DNA from: Mariprofundaceae bacterium
GTDB lineage: Bacteria > Pseudomonadota > Zetaproteobacteria > Mariprofundales > Mariprofundaceae
Direction of reading: 5' to 3'
Assembly: GCA_021772895.1 (NCBI GenBank)
Contig: JAJFLC010000008.1
Coordinates: forward strand, 1 to 54,621
Length of the DNA stretch: 54,621 nucleotides
Shown piece after piece: positions 31,210-37,154 of this stretch. Within the stretch, counting starts at the first letter, position 1. Each line of letters starts with the position of its first letter. A model generated the notes under the pieces. It did no database searches and had not been told where the DNA came from. It saw nothing but the letters and a program-made list of their open reading frames with translations. Made by a program: the position numbers and the translations under genes.

Positions 31210-31239
31210 CATAAAACCTGATGATAGCAGGAGGTGGGC

Positions 31240-31881
31240 ATGGCAAAAAAAATACAAACATATCAAGGGGAAAATATCACGGTTCATTTTGATGCAAGCC
31301 GTTGTATGCATGCTGGAAAATGTGTCCATGATTTACCCGAGGTTTTCAGGCCGGAGTCACGTGGCCGATGGATATTTCCAGATGCTGCTGATGTTGAAGC
31401 TTTATCCGAGATGATTGCCACCTGTCCATCGGGCGCGTTGACGTATGTTCGTATGGATGTTTCAAAGAGTGAGAAAAAACCGGAGGTCAACAGTATCTCA
31501 GTGATGCCTGGCGGGCCACTTTATGTTCATGCAGACATGGAGATTCATGACGTGCCGGAACCATCATACCGGGCTGCTCTGTGTCGTTGTGGGGCTAGCT
31601 GTGCGCCGCCCTATTGTGATGGTGCGCATAAATCAGCGGGTTTTAAGGATGGTAGTGGTGATTTTTCAGGGCAGGTAGAAGAGATATCTATCAATGGCTG
31701 CCTGAGCATTTCAACGGTTTCTGATGGACCGTTATTGATTAAGGGTGGCTGCCAGTTACGGGATATCAAAGGGACTGTGTTTGCATCTCATGAACAGTTT
31801 GTCTTGTGTCGCTGTGGGGCATCTGCCAACAAACCTTATTGTGATGGCAGCCATGTTGGTATAAATTTCAAAGCCGATTGA
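31240..31881 (+). CDS. CDGSH iron-sulfur protein with N-terminal 4Fe-4S domain
   Basis: 213 residues from ATG at 31240, chosen because GCAGGAGGTGGGC places an ideal SD 5-6 nt upstream; GTG 31234 would overlap it. Residues ~10-70 form a divergent mono-cluster ferredoxin domain (CMHAGKCVHDLPEVF and ATCPSGAL). Two CDGSH/mitoNEET-type motifs follow: LCRCGASCAPPYCDGAHKSA near residue 118 and LCRCGASANKPYCDGSHVGI near 195. Each CDGSH site binds a labile 2Fe-2S cluster through three Cys and one His. The role is likely iron-sulfur handling or electron transfer. Confidence 0.92.
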   Translation: MAKKIQTYQGENITVHFDASRCMHAGKCVHDLPEVFRPESRGRWIFPDAADVEALSEMIATCPSGALTYVRMDVSKSEKKPEVNSISVMPGGPLYVHADMEIHDVPEPSYRAALCRCGASCAPPYCDGAHKSAGFKDGSGDFSGQVEEISINGCLSISTVSDGPLLIKGGCQLRDIKGTVFASHEQFVLCRCGASANKPYCDGSHVGINFKAD

Positions 31882-32229: not shown

Positions 32230-32958
32230 CTATTCCGGTGAAACGCTTTGTATCAATGCTTTAGGTTCAACCACTGTGTATGTACCCGCTTTTAAACCGG
32301 TTTGTTCCAGTGAAAGGGTACCAATATGTGTTCGTGTCAGTGCGGTCACATGATTGCCGATGGCAGCAAACATTCTGCGCACCTGATGATAGCGACCTTC
32401 ATGGAGTATAAGCACGGCCTGCTTTTCTCCAACTGCGGTCATTTCTGCGGGAAGGCAGGCTCTGTAATCATCTTCGAGCATCAGTTTCCCGCTGGCGAAG
32501 AGTTCCATCTCATTACCACTCAGGGGTTGATCCAGTGTCACAGCATAGGTTTTGGAGATGTGATGTTTTGGACTGGTCAAGTGATGGTTGAGTTGCCCGT
32601 CATCGGTAAGAATCAGGAGTCCCGAAGTCTCCTTGTCGAGTCTGCCGACACTGGAAAGCGGCGGTTTACGATATTGCCACTGCTCTGGAAGATCATCATA
32701 GATCAGCACACCCTTCTCTTTATGCGAGCATACGGCATCAAGCGGTTTGTGATAGATTAGTGTTAACCCTTCAGGGTGATCAAGCGGTTCCCCATCAAAC
32801 AGGACAAACACCGGATCAACTTTTTCAGATGGTGACTTTACGACTTTTCCATCGCAGGTGATTAACCCCTGCTTGACCCAACTCTTCACATCTTTACGCG
32901 AACCATAAGCGAGATTGGAGAGCAGCTTGTCCAGACGCTCGGTTTTATTCATACTCAT
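32230..32958 (-). CDS. rsuA: 16S rRNA pseudouridine synthase, RsuA family
   Basis: 242 residues from ATG 32958 (ATG 32952 also possible); the longer frame runs deep into the neighbouring gene. The N-terminal S4-like segment is RLDKLLSNLAYGSRKDVKSW. The catalytic Asp lies in SSVGRLDKETSGLLILTDDG. The LILHEGRYHQVRRMFAAIGN motif is strongly RsuA/RluE-like. RsuA makes pseudouridine 516 in 16S rRNA. The start overlaps the upstream methyltransferase gene by 14 nt; the two may act together on rRNA. Confidence 0.9.
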   Translation of the reverse strand: MSMNKTERLDKLLSNLAYGSRKDVKSWVKQGLITCDGKVVKSPSEKVDPVFVLFDGEPLDHPEGLTLIYHKPLDAVCSHKEKGVLIYDDLPEQWQYRKPPLSSVGRLDKETSGLLILTDDGQLNHHLTSPKHHISKTYAVTLDQPLSGNEMELFASGKLMLEDDYRACLPAEMTAVGEKQAVLILHEGRYHQVRRMFAAIGNHVTALTRTHIGTLSLEQTGLKAGTYTVVEPKALIQSVSPE

Positions 32959-34033
32959 AATCGTAATCCCAACCTTCTTCATTTGTTGTCTGAGCCGGGC
33001 GTTGTTTTGTCCGCGGGTTCGCGCCCCTGGAGGCCTCAATAATTTTAAACCCCTGCTCCTGAACGACAGCGTGATGCTCCATCAGCATGCGATCCAGTAC
33101 CGCTTCATAAGCCAGCTTTCGATTGGCTACCATGTAGAGCTTGCCATTGCGCTTCAATGAGTTACAGGCGTTGGCAATAATTGTTTGTCCGAGTGGAACA
33201 TCCTGACTTTGCCCGCTATGAAAGGGAGGGTTACATACAACCCAGTCCAGTTTTAAGGGTAATGGATCAGTCACTGCATCGAACCAGTGTGGTTTAACTT
33301 TATTTTGCCATATTTGGATATTCTGCTCTGCACATTCAAGCGCCAGTCGGTCGGCTTCGACCAGATGAAGGCTATCGATATCTGGATGTGATTTGAGAAT
33401 GTTTACGGAAAGAAAACCATAACCACAGCAGAGATCCATGCCTGTTCCGAACAGTGCGTCGGGCAGATGTTGAAGTAAAAGCTGTGAACCGATGTCTGCT
33501 CTATCCCAACTGAATAGTCCGGGTTGTGAAATGAGTCCATGGCCTTCAATCACTCCGGACCTGACATTAGAAATCCACTGCGCCGTGAGCTCTGCATCCA
33601 ACGTATCAGTTTTTCTGGCTGAAAAAACACGACATTTGGATTTAGAGGATGAACTTACACTTCCGGCAAGTTTCTTGAGTGCAGACTCATAACTTTTAGC
33701 GCCATGGTTATTGGCGCATGCCATCAACAGTTTTCCGCCGTCAACCAGATGACTCATTGCATCGGCCATCCAGCCCAGCGTTTGTTGTTTGTTCTTTGAT
33801 GGTATCAAAAGGATAAGGTCAAACTCACCTTCAAGGTTGTGTGAGCAGTTGAAACCCAATCGTAACAGTTCGTCACAGGCAGGCTTGAAGTGCTGTAGAA
33901 TGGTAAGTTGATCACATTGTTTGCTGATCTCTTTTAGCCGTAGATCGGCATGCGCATTCATGATGGCAGCACGTGCGGTCTTATCATGTAAGGAATCAAA
34001 TGTGGCTTGATAGAGAAGTTGTGTGGCAGGCAT
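32945..34033 (-). CDS. class I SAM-dependent rRNA guanine-N2 methyltransferase, RsmC/RlmG-like
   Basis: 362 residues from ATG 34033; ATG 34099 and TTG 34114 keep the frame. The N-terminal half is a degenerate methyltransferase-like domain. The C-terminal half has the SAM motif GTGMDLCCGYGFLSVNILKS, the VEADRLALECAEQN acidic loop and the catalytic NPPFHSG. Duplicated-domain architecture and NPPFH are features of RsmC (16S G1207) and RlmG (23S G1835). I cannot choose between them. The C-terminal ~35 residues (basic, then EEGWDYDYEYE) are an extra tail. Confidence 0.87.
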   Translation of the reverse strand: MPATQLLYQATFDSLHDKTARAAIMNAHADLRLKEISKQCDQLTILQHFKPACDELLRLGFNCSHNLEGEFDLILLIPSKNKQQTLGWMADAMSHLVDGGKLLMACANNHGAKSYESALKKLAGSVSSSSKSKCRVFSARKTDTLDAELTAQWISNVRSGVIEGHGLISQPGLFSWDRADIGSQLLLQHLPDALFGTGMDLCCGYGFLSVNILKSHPDIDSLHLVEADRLALECAEQNIQIWQNKVKPHWFDAVTDPLPLKLDWVVCNPPFHSGQSQDVPLGQTIIANACNSLKRNGKLYMVANRKLAYEAVLDRMLMEHHAVVQEQGFKIIEASRGANPRTKQRPAQTTNEEGWDYDYEYE

Positions 34034-34081
34034 GATCGTGAATGTAGAAAGAAGATGGATTTCTGTCCAATTGATTGATGT

Positions 34082-34111
34082 TTGTCGGTTTTGATGCATA
34101 TGAACTATGAT
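34082..34111 (+). promoter_or_regulatory. predicted promoter of the KAP NTPase gene
   Basis: TTGTCG-type -35 (34082-34087, read as TTTGTCGG) and TATGAT -10 (34106-34111) with about 18 nt between. The start codon follows 20 nt downstream with an AGGAGGGGG SD. It is divergent from the methyltransferase gene. Confidence 0.42.
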
Positions 34112-34130
34112 CAATGACAGGAGGGGGATT

Positions 34131-36665
34131 ATGAGTGAACTATTAGAGATTCAATTGCCCGATGAAAAGGAGCTTGCAAAGCTTTCTAAAATATCTATTG
34201 GTGCATATGCGGCACGATGTGCCTTAAGAGCACTTCCAACGACTGTAGTTGGAGATGAACTCTCTACGTGGGGAAACGATTTTGACCGCAATATGCGATG
34301 CACTGAAATGGCAGTGTTATTAGCATCCCTGGGGCCATTAATCGAGATGGAGACTGTCCAGGATATCATTTCAGACGTTTCAACTGGTATGGATGATATC
34401 GTTGCTAAAGCCAATGCCAGATCTGCATTTGTAGCCGTTGCAGAAGCACTTCATGCTGTTGATGAGAAGGGTGATATCAACACCATGGCCGGGTTTGCTG
34501 AAAAAGCGAGTGTAGCTAGTAGAGCAGCTACCGGGAAAGGCAGCGATGATCAGCAGTCCGCACATGATATGGCCAATAGAGCGGCAATGAGAGATTTGAT
34601 GGTTTTAATGAAAGAGGAATCCAGTCCGCATTCGGTTTTTAATTCGTCGCTTTGGCCTGATGGGGAACCTGATGGATGGTTTGATTCTCTTGGTCATTGG
34701 AATTCGGCGTTAGATGTCAAAGGGCTGGGAGCGACTGTCAGTCGTTATCAGGGGTTTTTGTATGGACGGCCGGACTGGGAATCTTGCAAAGAGGCCGTTA
34801 ATCATTGGTACAGTGAATACGGCGGTGAAGAAGGCCGGAAGCCGATAGAGGAATTAGCCAAACAGCCAGAAGATCTTCAATTCGGGGCATCTGGAAGTGC
34901 CACCTTGAATATGGATGGCGCTGCTTTGGAGGATCATCTCGGGCGAGATGTTCTGGTCAAAGCACTTTGTGAGCTGCTCGATTACCCCGATTACAGTGGA
35001 CGACTCACCATAGGTTTGATGGGTCATTGGGGCTCGGGTAAATCGAGTGTACTTAAAATGCTTGAGAAAGCACTGACTGAAAAAGACAAAGAAAAAAACA
35101 AGTTTTGGCAGCCAGAAAGCGAATTTATCTACGCCGAATTCAATGCATGGGCATACGAACATACCGATAATATTCAGGCAGGTCTGGCACAGGAAGTGGT
35201 CAATGGATTGACTGGTAGGCTTAACATTTTCCAAAAGCTGCTGCTGGCATCCAGATTGGCAATCATGGAACACCCTTGGAGATTCCTGTATACGTTTTTT
35301 GTGGTTGCCATAGCCGGTACAACAGCACTCTTTTACCAAACATGGTTTGATCAAAATCAGCATTTAATTGCTCAAGGTGGCCTTACAGCACTTATTATTG
35401 GAATGTTGATTTCAATCGTTCCGCAGATCAAACAAATGGTCGCCAATCCTATGGCCAAACAGTTACAGACCTATTTGCGACTGCCCGAGTTCGGAAGTTA
35501 TCTCGGTGCATTGCCCGTGATACAGAGGCAGGTTCACAATATTTGTGAAATCAGATTAAACACTGGTCAACGTGCAACATGCAGATGGCCGGGGCCAAAG
35601 AGGCGTTTCCTGTTTGTCGTTGATGATTTGGATCGTTGCGGTGTAAAGGGTATTGTAGAAACTCTGGAAGCAGTACGGCTTGTGATGGATCTTGAAAGTG
35701 TCACGGTTATTATCGCCATTGATCACCGTATGGCCCTGGCTGCTCTGACAAATCACTATTATGAACTGTCTGAGAAAGGGAGTGAAAGAACGCCTCAAGC
35801 TATTGCTCGCGACTATCTGGGAAAAATATTTCAGGTGCCAATCCTGCTTGACGAACCGCTGGAAAATATTGAATTTTATGTAAAGAAAAGCCTTTTTAAT
35901 CATTTGCTTCATTCGAGCGATGAAAGCAAAACTAACACTGGAAATGGCAAAGGTTCGGGCGATGGTGTTGGTGAAATTGATGGAGCCGGGAATGGCAGTG
36001 ACTCGGGCGATAGTGCTGATGAAGTTGATGGAACCGGGAATGGCAGTGACTCGGGCGATGCTGCCGGTGAAATTGATGGAACTGGAAATGGCAGTGACTC
36101 GGGCGATGCTGCTGGTGAAGTTGATGGAATTGAAGAGGGCATGAACATCAAAGAAAAAGCGACTTCAGGAGTGATGGAGGATTCGCAGGATGAGCTGAAT
36201 CGGTTTGTGCATCTTGCCAAGGGCTTTGATATTGCAAACCCAAGGCAGCTCAAGCGTTTGCACAACTGTTATAGATTGTTAAAGGGCTATGAGTGGCATT
36301 GTCGAAATGAAAGGAGAAGTTTTGGAGAAGAGACCTGGCCGGATAATCTGGTGGTGATGACGATGCTTTTCTGGCTTGAGTTTCTTTACAACTGTGAATG
36401 GGATAAGAGAGAGTGGGAGGAGAAAAATCTATTGGAAAGTTTTGATCATGAGGATAGCGGATCTTTATTGAACAATAGGTATTATGATGTAGGACATAAG
36501 AATCGTTTACTCAACGTATTACACGACACCTTTTTTGTTGGGGACAAACCGGAAACGTCCTATTTTACACTTAAGCATAAAGTTGAACCCTTCATGCTCC
36601 CTTTTGCCGAGCGCAAGAACAGCGACACGAAAAAAGAAGCTGAAGTGGAGAAGCAGGTCAAATAA
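34131..36665 (+). CDS. KAP-family P-loop NTPase with tandem-repeat insert
   Basis: 844 residues from ATG 34131, right after AGGAGGGGGATT. Residues 1-~270 are helical with no domain I recognise. The KAP NTPase domain starts near 275: Walker A GLMGHWGSGKSSVLKMLEKA (about 293-312), two membrane-spanning helices inserted at about 384-432 as is typical of KAP proteins, and Walker B FLFVVDDLDRCGVKGIVETL (about 492). A low-complexity linker of four 16-residue repeats lies at about 604-667, and FDIANPRQLKRLHNCYRLLK is a C-terminal KAP motif. KAP NTPases include the phage-exclusion protein PifA. The gene stands alone with its own promoter and terminator; a defence role is inferred, not shown. Confidence 0.9.
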   Translation: MSELLEIQLPDEKELAKLSKISIGAYAARCALRALPTTVVGDELSTWGNDFDRNMRCTEMAVLLASLGPLIEMETVQDIISDVSTGMDDIVAKANARSAFVAVAEALHAVDEKGDINTMAGFAEKASVASRAATGKGSDDQQSAHDMANRAAMRDLMVLMKEESSPHSVFNSSLWPDGEPDGWFDSLGHWNSALDVKGLGATVSRYQGFLYGRPDWESCKEAVNHWYSEYGGEEGRKPIEELAKQPEDLQFGASGSATLNMDGAALEDHLGRDVLVKALCELLDYPDYSGRLTIGLMGHWGSGKSSVLKMLEKALTEKDKEKNKFWQPESEFIYAEFNAWAYEHTDNIQAGLAQEVVNGLTGRLNIFQKLLLASRLAIMEHPWRFLYTFFVVAIAGTTALFYQTWFDQNQHLIAQGGLTALIIGMLISIVPQIKQMVANPMAKQLQTYLRLPEFGSYLGALPVIQRQVHNICEIRLNTGQRATCRWPGPKRRFLFVVDDLDRCGVKGIVETLEAVRLVMDLESVTVIIAIDHRMALAALTNHYYELSEKGSERTPQAIARDYLGKIFQVPILLDEPLENIEFYVKKSLFNHLLHSSDESKTNTGNGKGSGDGVGEIDGAGNGSDSGDSADEVDGTGNGSDSGDAAGEIDGTGNGSDSGDAAGEVDGIEEGMNIKEKATSGVMEDSQDELNRFVHLAKGFDIANPRQLKRLHNCYRLLKGYEWHCRNERRSFGEETWPDNLVVMTMLFWLEFLYNCEWDKREWEEKNLLESFDHEDSGSLLNNRYYDVGHKNRLLNVLHDTFFVGDKPETSYFTLKHKVEPFMLPFAERKNSDTKKEAEVEKQVK
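35940..36131 (+). repeat. four in-frame 48-bp tandem repeats within the KAP gene
   Basis: Units start at 35940, 35988, 36036 and 36084. Each encodes 16 residues of the form GNGSDSGDAAGEIDGT. Unit 1 differs most (GNGKGSGDGVGEIDGA); units 3 and 4 are nearly identical, including at third codon positions, which points to recent duplication. The unit is acidic and glycine-rich, likely a flexible linker or a calcium-binding-like segment. Confidence 0.95.
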
Positions 36666-36681
36666 CGACCTGCTTCTTTTT
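36650..36681 (+). terminator. rho-independent terminator of the KAP NTPase gene
   Basis: GAAGCAGGTC (36650-36659) pairs perfectly with GACCTGCTTC (36667-36676) over a 7-nt loop that contains the stop codon, then TTTTT follows. The 3' arm lies outside the coding frame. Confidence 0.9.
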
Positions 36682-36695
36682 CAGTCCGCCTCGAT

Positions 36696-37154
36696 TTATT
36701 TCTTTCCCGAACTGCCAAAACCTCCGGCACCGCGTTCAGTTTTAGAGAGTTCGGAAACGGGCTGGAAATCTGCCTGTACAAAAGGTGCGATAATCATCTG
36801 AGCGATGCGCTCACCACGCTGGATATGGAAGGGCGTTTTGCCATGATTCATGAGGATGACACCCACTTCTCCACGGTAATCGGCATCAACGGTGCCAGGT
36901 GTGTTGAGTACGGTGATTCCATGTTTCAGCGCTAAACCTGAGCGAGGGCGCACCTGCGCTTCATAGTTGTCCGGCAGTGCCATGGCAAAACCGGTTGGAA
37001 TCAGGGCGTGCTCTCCCGGCTCGATGACAACATCACGATCAACTGCGGCACGAAGATCAGCACCGGCGGCATGGGTGGTTGCGTAAAATGGCAATTCAAG
37101 CCCTTCACCATGGGGTAGTTGTTTGATCTCTACGGTTGGGTTGCGTGCGCTCAT
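36696..37154 (-). CDS. dut: dUTP diphosphatase (dUTPase)
   Basis: 152 residues of the trimeric dUTPase family. It hydrolyses dUTP to dUMP, keeping uracil out of DNA. Motifs: [58 protein letters not shown] and the C-terminal [10 protein letters not shown] arm that covers the active site. The ATG overlaps the coaBC stop by 4 nt, the same coaBC-dut order as in many proteobacteria. Confidence 0.97.

Follow-up and report, generated by a model that had tools for sequence, protein, structure and literature searches.

KAP-family P-loop NTPases occur both in defence and in non-defence settings. A solitary example is PifA, with which the F plasmid excludes phage T7. The way in which PifA and other solitary KAP NTPases recognize their targets is, to our knowledge, not well understood. 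Another described member, QatA of the qatABCD system, is reported to bind DNA, to form heptamers/octamers and to affect the phage range of qatABCD, yet it is not essential against some phages (PMC13279940). These findings support a view of KAP NTPases as assembly-type immunity components and favor no particular mechanism for the protein described below. Here we analyze a KAP-family NTPase gene in a stretch of 54,621 nucleotides from a Mariprofundaceae bacterium, hereafter the window. The KAP region of its product scores against the defense profiles QatA, PifA and PDC-S20, which are its best profile relatives.

A KAP NTPase With a Predicted Membrane Insert

The KAP gene (34131-36665, plus strand) is an open frame of 844 amino acids plus stop, and a good Shine-Dalgarno sequence, GGAGGGGG, lies at 34120-34127 ahead of the ATG at 34131; an upstream ATG at 34107, in the same frame, is a possible alternative start. 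The Pfam family KAP_NTPase (PF07693) matches residues 272-713 (34944-36269, plus strand) with 117.6 bits against a curated cut-off of 20 (E = 8.5e-34). Walker A (GHWGSGKS, residue 298) and Walker B (FVVDDLDRC, residue 495) are both intact, and an NPRQLKRLHN motif begins at residue 703. Two hydrophobic helices (residues 385-403 and 412-430; 35283-35420, plus strand), assigned by hydropathy only, form a predicted transmembrane hairpin within the NTPase domain. Both fall between Walker A and Walker B, an insert position typical of KAP NTPases, and the large membrane-inserted KAP NTPase of the original prediction is borne out in this respect. Inside the same domain, ahead of the NPR motif, a 48-bp tandem repeat of 3.6 copies (35955-36129, plus strand; TRF score 273) encodes a Gly/Ser/Asp/Asn-rich linker, each unit specifying in frame an acidic stretch of 16 residues (GNGSDSGD...). 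The copy number of this repeat could differ among strains.

An intrinsic terminator (36649-36682, plus strand) overlaps the stop codon. Its 11-bp stem, AGAAGCAGGTC/GACCTGCTTCT, is perfect, as had been predicted, and is followed by a T run; the predicted fold has an energy of -24.7 kcal/mol and a z-score of -6.25, equaled by none of 200 shuffles. A simple terminator scanner gave no call at this position; the likely reason is that pairing of the stem can continue into the T run. The gene had also been credited with its own promoter, a claim that did not hold up: the promoter-like match at 34082-34111 (9/12) is one of nine such sites, with 5.8 +/- 2.3 expected by chance. The G+C content of the gene (45.5%, vs 46.6% for the window) gives no sign of foreign origin by base composition.

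A Single-Gene Insertion Between rsmC and dut

As originally described, the KAP gene is set between minus-strand genes, an rsmC-like methyltransferase on one side (32945-34033; MTS, E = 4e-48) and dut/coaBC on the other (dut, encoding dUTPase, 36696-37154; dUTPase, E = 3e-34), and both flanks are housekeeping genes. The whole segment from the rsmC start to the dut stop (34034-36695) measures 2662 bp, a gene-sized insertion of which the KAP coding sequence takes up 95%. At two loci of the same genus (L027 and L028) rsmC directly adjoins dut, with 10 bp from start to stop codon in L028; the insertion in the window amounts to ~2.65 kb. No match to the KAP protein was found at E <= 1e-5 in 60 related genomes, three of them of the same genus. 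Among 398 genomes drawn from the phylum only eight gave any match, the window's own genome included, and in the other seven the matched stretches lie in the KAP region. In 18 further relatives, rsmC stood beside dut in nine genomes with a gap that was always <= ~0.7 kb, and none of these gaps held a visible KAP gene.

The KAP gene is therefore an accessory single-gene insertion rather than a lineage-wide gene, and the absence of matches from the 60 relatives together with the adjacency of dut and rsmC in two same-genus genomes indicates a sporadic gain. Universal presence at the same locus, which the original prediction had named as evidence against a defense role, is thus not what these genomes contain. 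Neither an integrase, a transposase nor long terminal repeats are seen in the rsmC-dut segment, and the ends of the insertion show no conspicuous target-site duplication or inverted repeats. Prophage or plasmid genes do not surround the KAP gene either. In the scanned parts of the window outside this segment, the genes are those of core chromosome (ribosomal proteins, secY, RNase E/G). Single-protein scans of genome contigs and viral contigs and a tblastn search of phage records recovered no relative of the KAP protein. Elsewhere in the window, at 31234-31878 (plus strand), a divergent 4Fe-4S ferredoxin-like domain (Fer4_19) is fused to two CDGSH iron-sulfur motifs.

An Unnamed N-Terminal Domain

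Residues 1-270 of the KAP protein carry no Pfam, NCBIfam or PADLOC domain, in agreement with the earlier statement that the first ~270 residues match no known domain. By eye, the motifs AxRxxLRxxP ... LW ... WY are common to the window protein and to L004, a KAP protein encoded in a different genome. A direct BLASTP comparison of the two N-termini was unconvincing (E = 0.056), and their kinship emerged with profiles only. The search chain led from the L004 N-terminus to L057 and from there to L059, L060 and L063, whose profile recovered L066 and L067. Against profiles built without it, the window N-terminus scored E = 9e-4 with four sequences (best shuffle 0.58), 4.4e-7 with seven (best shuffle 0.028) and, in 5,002 sequences, 2.6e-9 with 59 (best shuffle 0.3), the shuffle sets comprising about 2,000-5,000 sequences. 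Among 419 real ORFs the window protein reached 2.7e-9 and the best unrelated ORF 0.89. With a 32-sequence profile, likewise made without the window, the KAP gene was the sole match in the whole six-frame genome (E = 4.6e-7).

Judged from these profile matches, residues ~17-240 (34178-34850, plus strand) are a divergent homologous copy of an unnamed, all-helical domain of ~230 amino acids, here referred to as the N-domain. Its landmarks in the window protein are, in order, AARCALRALP, D155, LWPDGEP, W190, RYQGFLYGRPDWE and VN. The window copy retains 19 of the 37 strongly conserved columns, among them AxRxALRxxP, D, LW, P, Y, L, G, W and VN, and has lost the tryptophans of WxVWxxW. Structure prediction of the window N-domain, made with an alignment of only eight sequences, gave a helical model of poor quality, with a pLDDT of 46. 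For a canonical N-domain (L145), an alignment of 44 sequences including the window's gave an all-helical model with a pLDDT of 90.6 and a pTM of 0.87, which describes the domain of L145 and not that of the window. Searches with the L145 model matched no structure in PDB (best E = 1.1) or BFVD (best E = 2.1), the L145 sequence had no match in PDB, and no description of the domain was found in the literature searched. A tblastn search of plasmids with the window N-terminus returned only marginal matches in NRPS genes (E >= 0.02), which we took as chance.

The N-terminal modules of KAP NTPases seem to vary. The window's own genome (G000) encodes a second KAP NTPase near the end of contig 7 (586-1527, minus strand; locus L012; Pfam, 7.6e-43), in a frame of 457 residues at which the N-domain profile found no match. 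An 823-residue frame in genome G081 (L003) joins a KAP NTPase to a different N-terminal region that is macro-domain-like by eye. On the Sinorhizobium plasmid pBSY16_2 (L175), a large KAP-type P-loop NTPase gene has as its neighbors a DarT-family ADP-ribosyltransferase and a macro-domain protein, surroundings that resemble a DarTG toxin-antitoxin locus.

The N-Domain Joined to Other Modules

A DNA pattern for the N-domain motif (RALR-LWP-WY), searched in about 85,000 species genomes, yielded 75 loci, overwhelmingly Alphaproteobacteria by record title, and all ORFs encoded at these loci match the N-domain profile. We scanned 66 N-domain proteins, 64 of which had been picked by the N-domain motif alone. 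Their Pfam partners were KAP in six (the window protein and L004 included), TIR_2 in two, one of them also matching ThsB_TIR, Abi_C in two and EVE in one; AAA_16 and NPHP3_N matches overlap the KAP domain where located. Below the Pfam cut-offs lie a third TIR match (L104, 0.0068), the Abi_C match of L109 and the EVE match, and a PADLOC scan adds SAVED-TIR, ThsB and AbiJ. No metabolic family occurred among the Pfam matches of the 66 proteins, and by sequence annotation the recognized partners (KAP, TIR, Abi_C and EVE) are of immunity type. In about 50 of the 66 the C-terminal part has no database model, these proteins ending in ~300 residues that match nothing.

Two architectures stood out beside these. 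Tandem N-domains occur in L097 (Rubrimonas) and in L101 (a Hwanghaeella MAG), where a TIR domain follows. In L105 and L106 (Roseibium) and in L103 the N-domain is followed by an EVE-like domain, which in the two Roseibium proteins precedes the KAP NTPase; it reaches E = 5.8e-4, below the cut-off, in L106 and was recognized by eye in L105 and L103.

The genes adjoining N-domain genes showed no clear enrichment for defense families. They include ABC transporters, sigma-70 and metabolic genes, and the PADLOC matches among them are mostly to generic ATPases/helicases. The window gene itself sits in core chromosome. No clear association with other defense genes emerged, a finding that would have strengthened an immunity role. 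The ordinary neighbors, the many N-domain genes that stand alone between housekeeping genes, and the hydrophobic segment found behind the N-domain in 24 of 53 complete proteins would all suit a cell-envelope or stress role, in which the N-domain proteins, the window KAP protein among them, serve as membrane scaffolds or in signaling, TIR, Abi_C and KAP having been recruited as signaling modules, and are accessory without being anti-phage. Such a role appears unlikely to us, since the recognized partners are solely conflict-type modules and the distribution of the domain is very patchy.

Proposed Function of the KAP Protein

Our preferred reading, held with somewhat more confidence than doubt, is that the window gene encodes a solitary, horizontally acquired, membrane-anchored immunity NTPase, in which the N-domain serves as sensor, adaptor or oligomerization module and a trigger leads to an NTP-dependent block or to shutdown of the cell. 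Because the N-domain is elsewhere joined to known virus-defense modules, the gene probably acts by itself as an anti-phage (or anti-plasmid) system. From the accessory insertion, the scores against defense profiles and the KAP, TIR and Abi_C fusions we infer a defensive role, with sensing by the N-domain and the KAP part as effector; the original candidate defense gene survives on these grounds, with no sign of a defense island among the neighboring genes. Weighing against this reading are the ~50 of 66 N-domain proteins whose C-terminal parts match no model, the ordinary neighbors, the occurrence of KAP NTPases outside defense, and the divergence of the window N-domain with its lost WxVWxxW tryptophans and poor structural model.

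In the mechanism we propose, a cytosolic N-domain (residues ~17-240) would be coupled to the KAP P-loop NTPase, which the two-helix insert would anchor in the inner membrane. On encountering its trigger, the N-domain would bring about an NTP-driven assembly of the membrane NTPase, and the assembled form could then block the invader or disable the cell (exclusion or abortive infection). Our confidence in these last steps is clearly lower than in the immunity NTPase as a whole. The N-terminal 270 residues had been suggested to be either the sensor or the effector part. They do contain a separate, database-absent module, and sensor or adaptor is a likelier role for it than effector, given that known effectors are among the C-terminal parts that replace one another behind it. 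With the N-domain constant and the C-terminal modules variable, the N-domain is more likely to be the part for recognition, adaptation or assembly, and the KAP domain with its hairpin the output.

More broadly, and tentatively, as a proposal we would stop just short of backing, the N-domain may represent an undescribed all-alpha domain that acts as a shared trigger-recognition or assembly module of single-gene immune proteins, mainly in Alphaproteobacteria, with interchangeable outputs (KAP membrane NTPase, TIR, Abi_C or hydrophobic C-terminal segments), the window gene being a divergent copy from outside that class. If so, the ~75 fetched loci, and surely more, would share one domain, absent from the catalogs, by which candidate immune proteins can be recognized; neighborhood-based screens would miss these proteins, since their genes lie singly between housekeeping genes. 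The family would also offer a concrete swappable sensor/effector architecture and would help to explain target recognition by solitary KAP NTPases of the PifA kind.

Comparison With Known KAP Systems and N-Domain Proteins

PifA resembles the window protein in being a solitary KAP-type NTPase, and the kinship proposed in the original prediction has a basis in a profile match of E = 4.4e-14. The match is partial and distant: of the 720 positions of the PifA profile, the best stretch covers only 57 residues. The QatA profile gives the higher score, and neither profile is matched over its full length. Together with the membrane hairpin in the NTPase, the match could point to superinfection exclusion of the PifA type, in which the KAP membrane NTPase alone would block phage DNA entry or leak the membrane on contact with a phage component, the N-domain being a stabilizing scaffold. 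We regard this as improbable, as the PifA match is so short, the window gene lacks prophage or plasmid genes in its surroundings, and the conserved N-domain is shared with non-KAP proteins, which suggests an active role for it. The window gene also differs from PifA in being chromosomal and in carrying the N-domain.

An incomplete Qat system, in which the gene would descend from a QatA relative whose qatBCD partners are gone and would now be decaying or acting by itself, is very improbable: although QatA is the best NCBIfam and PADLOC profile (E = 2e-29 and 6e-27) and the best BLAST match (27% identity over the NTPase core), the window protein scores 102.8 bits against an equivalog cut-off of 600, its reading frame is intact, it is flanked by rsmC and dut and not by qatB/C/D as at annotated QatA loci, it has an N-domain and a different C-terminus where QatA (632-643 aa) has no N-domain, and the clade of Qat proteins in the KAP tree (97/96) excludes it.

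For an immunity NTPase of the kind that we prefer, the nearest counterparts in architecture are five proteins (L004 and, from Alphaproteobacteria, L105, L106, L120 and L150) in which, as in the window protein, the N-domain is followed by a KAP NTPase with a membrane insert. They are distant from it in the KAP domain (24% identity for L004), and some, unlike the window protein, carry the EVE-like domain. In the KAP tree the five cluster in one clade (92/95) without the window protein, which is placed elsewhere with weak support. A single origin was not rejected (p-AU 0.13), and repeated fusion of the N-domain to KAP is therefore possible, though not established. The N-domain-TIR proteins (L093 and L101) and N-domain-Abi_C proteins (L118 and, below the Pfam cut-off, L109) share the N-terminal domain of the window protein and differ from it in the C-terminal module, TIR or Abi_C in place of KAP.
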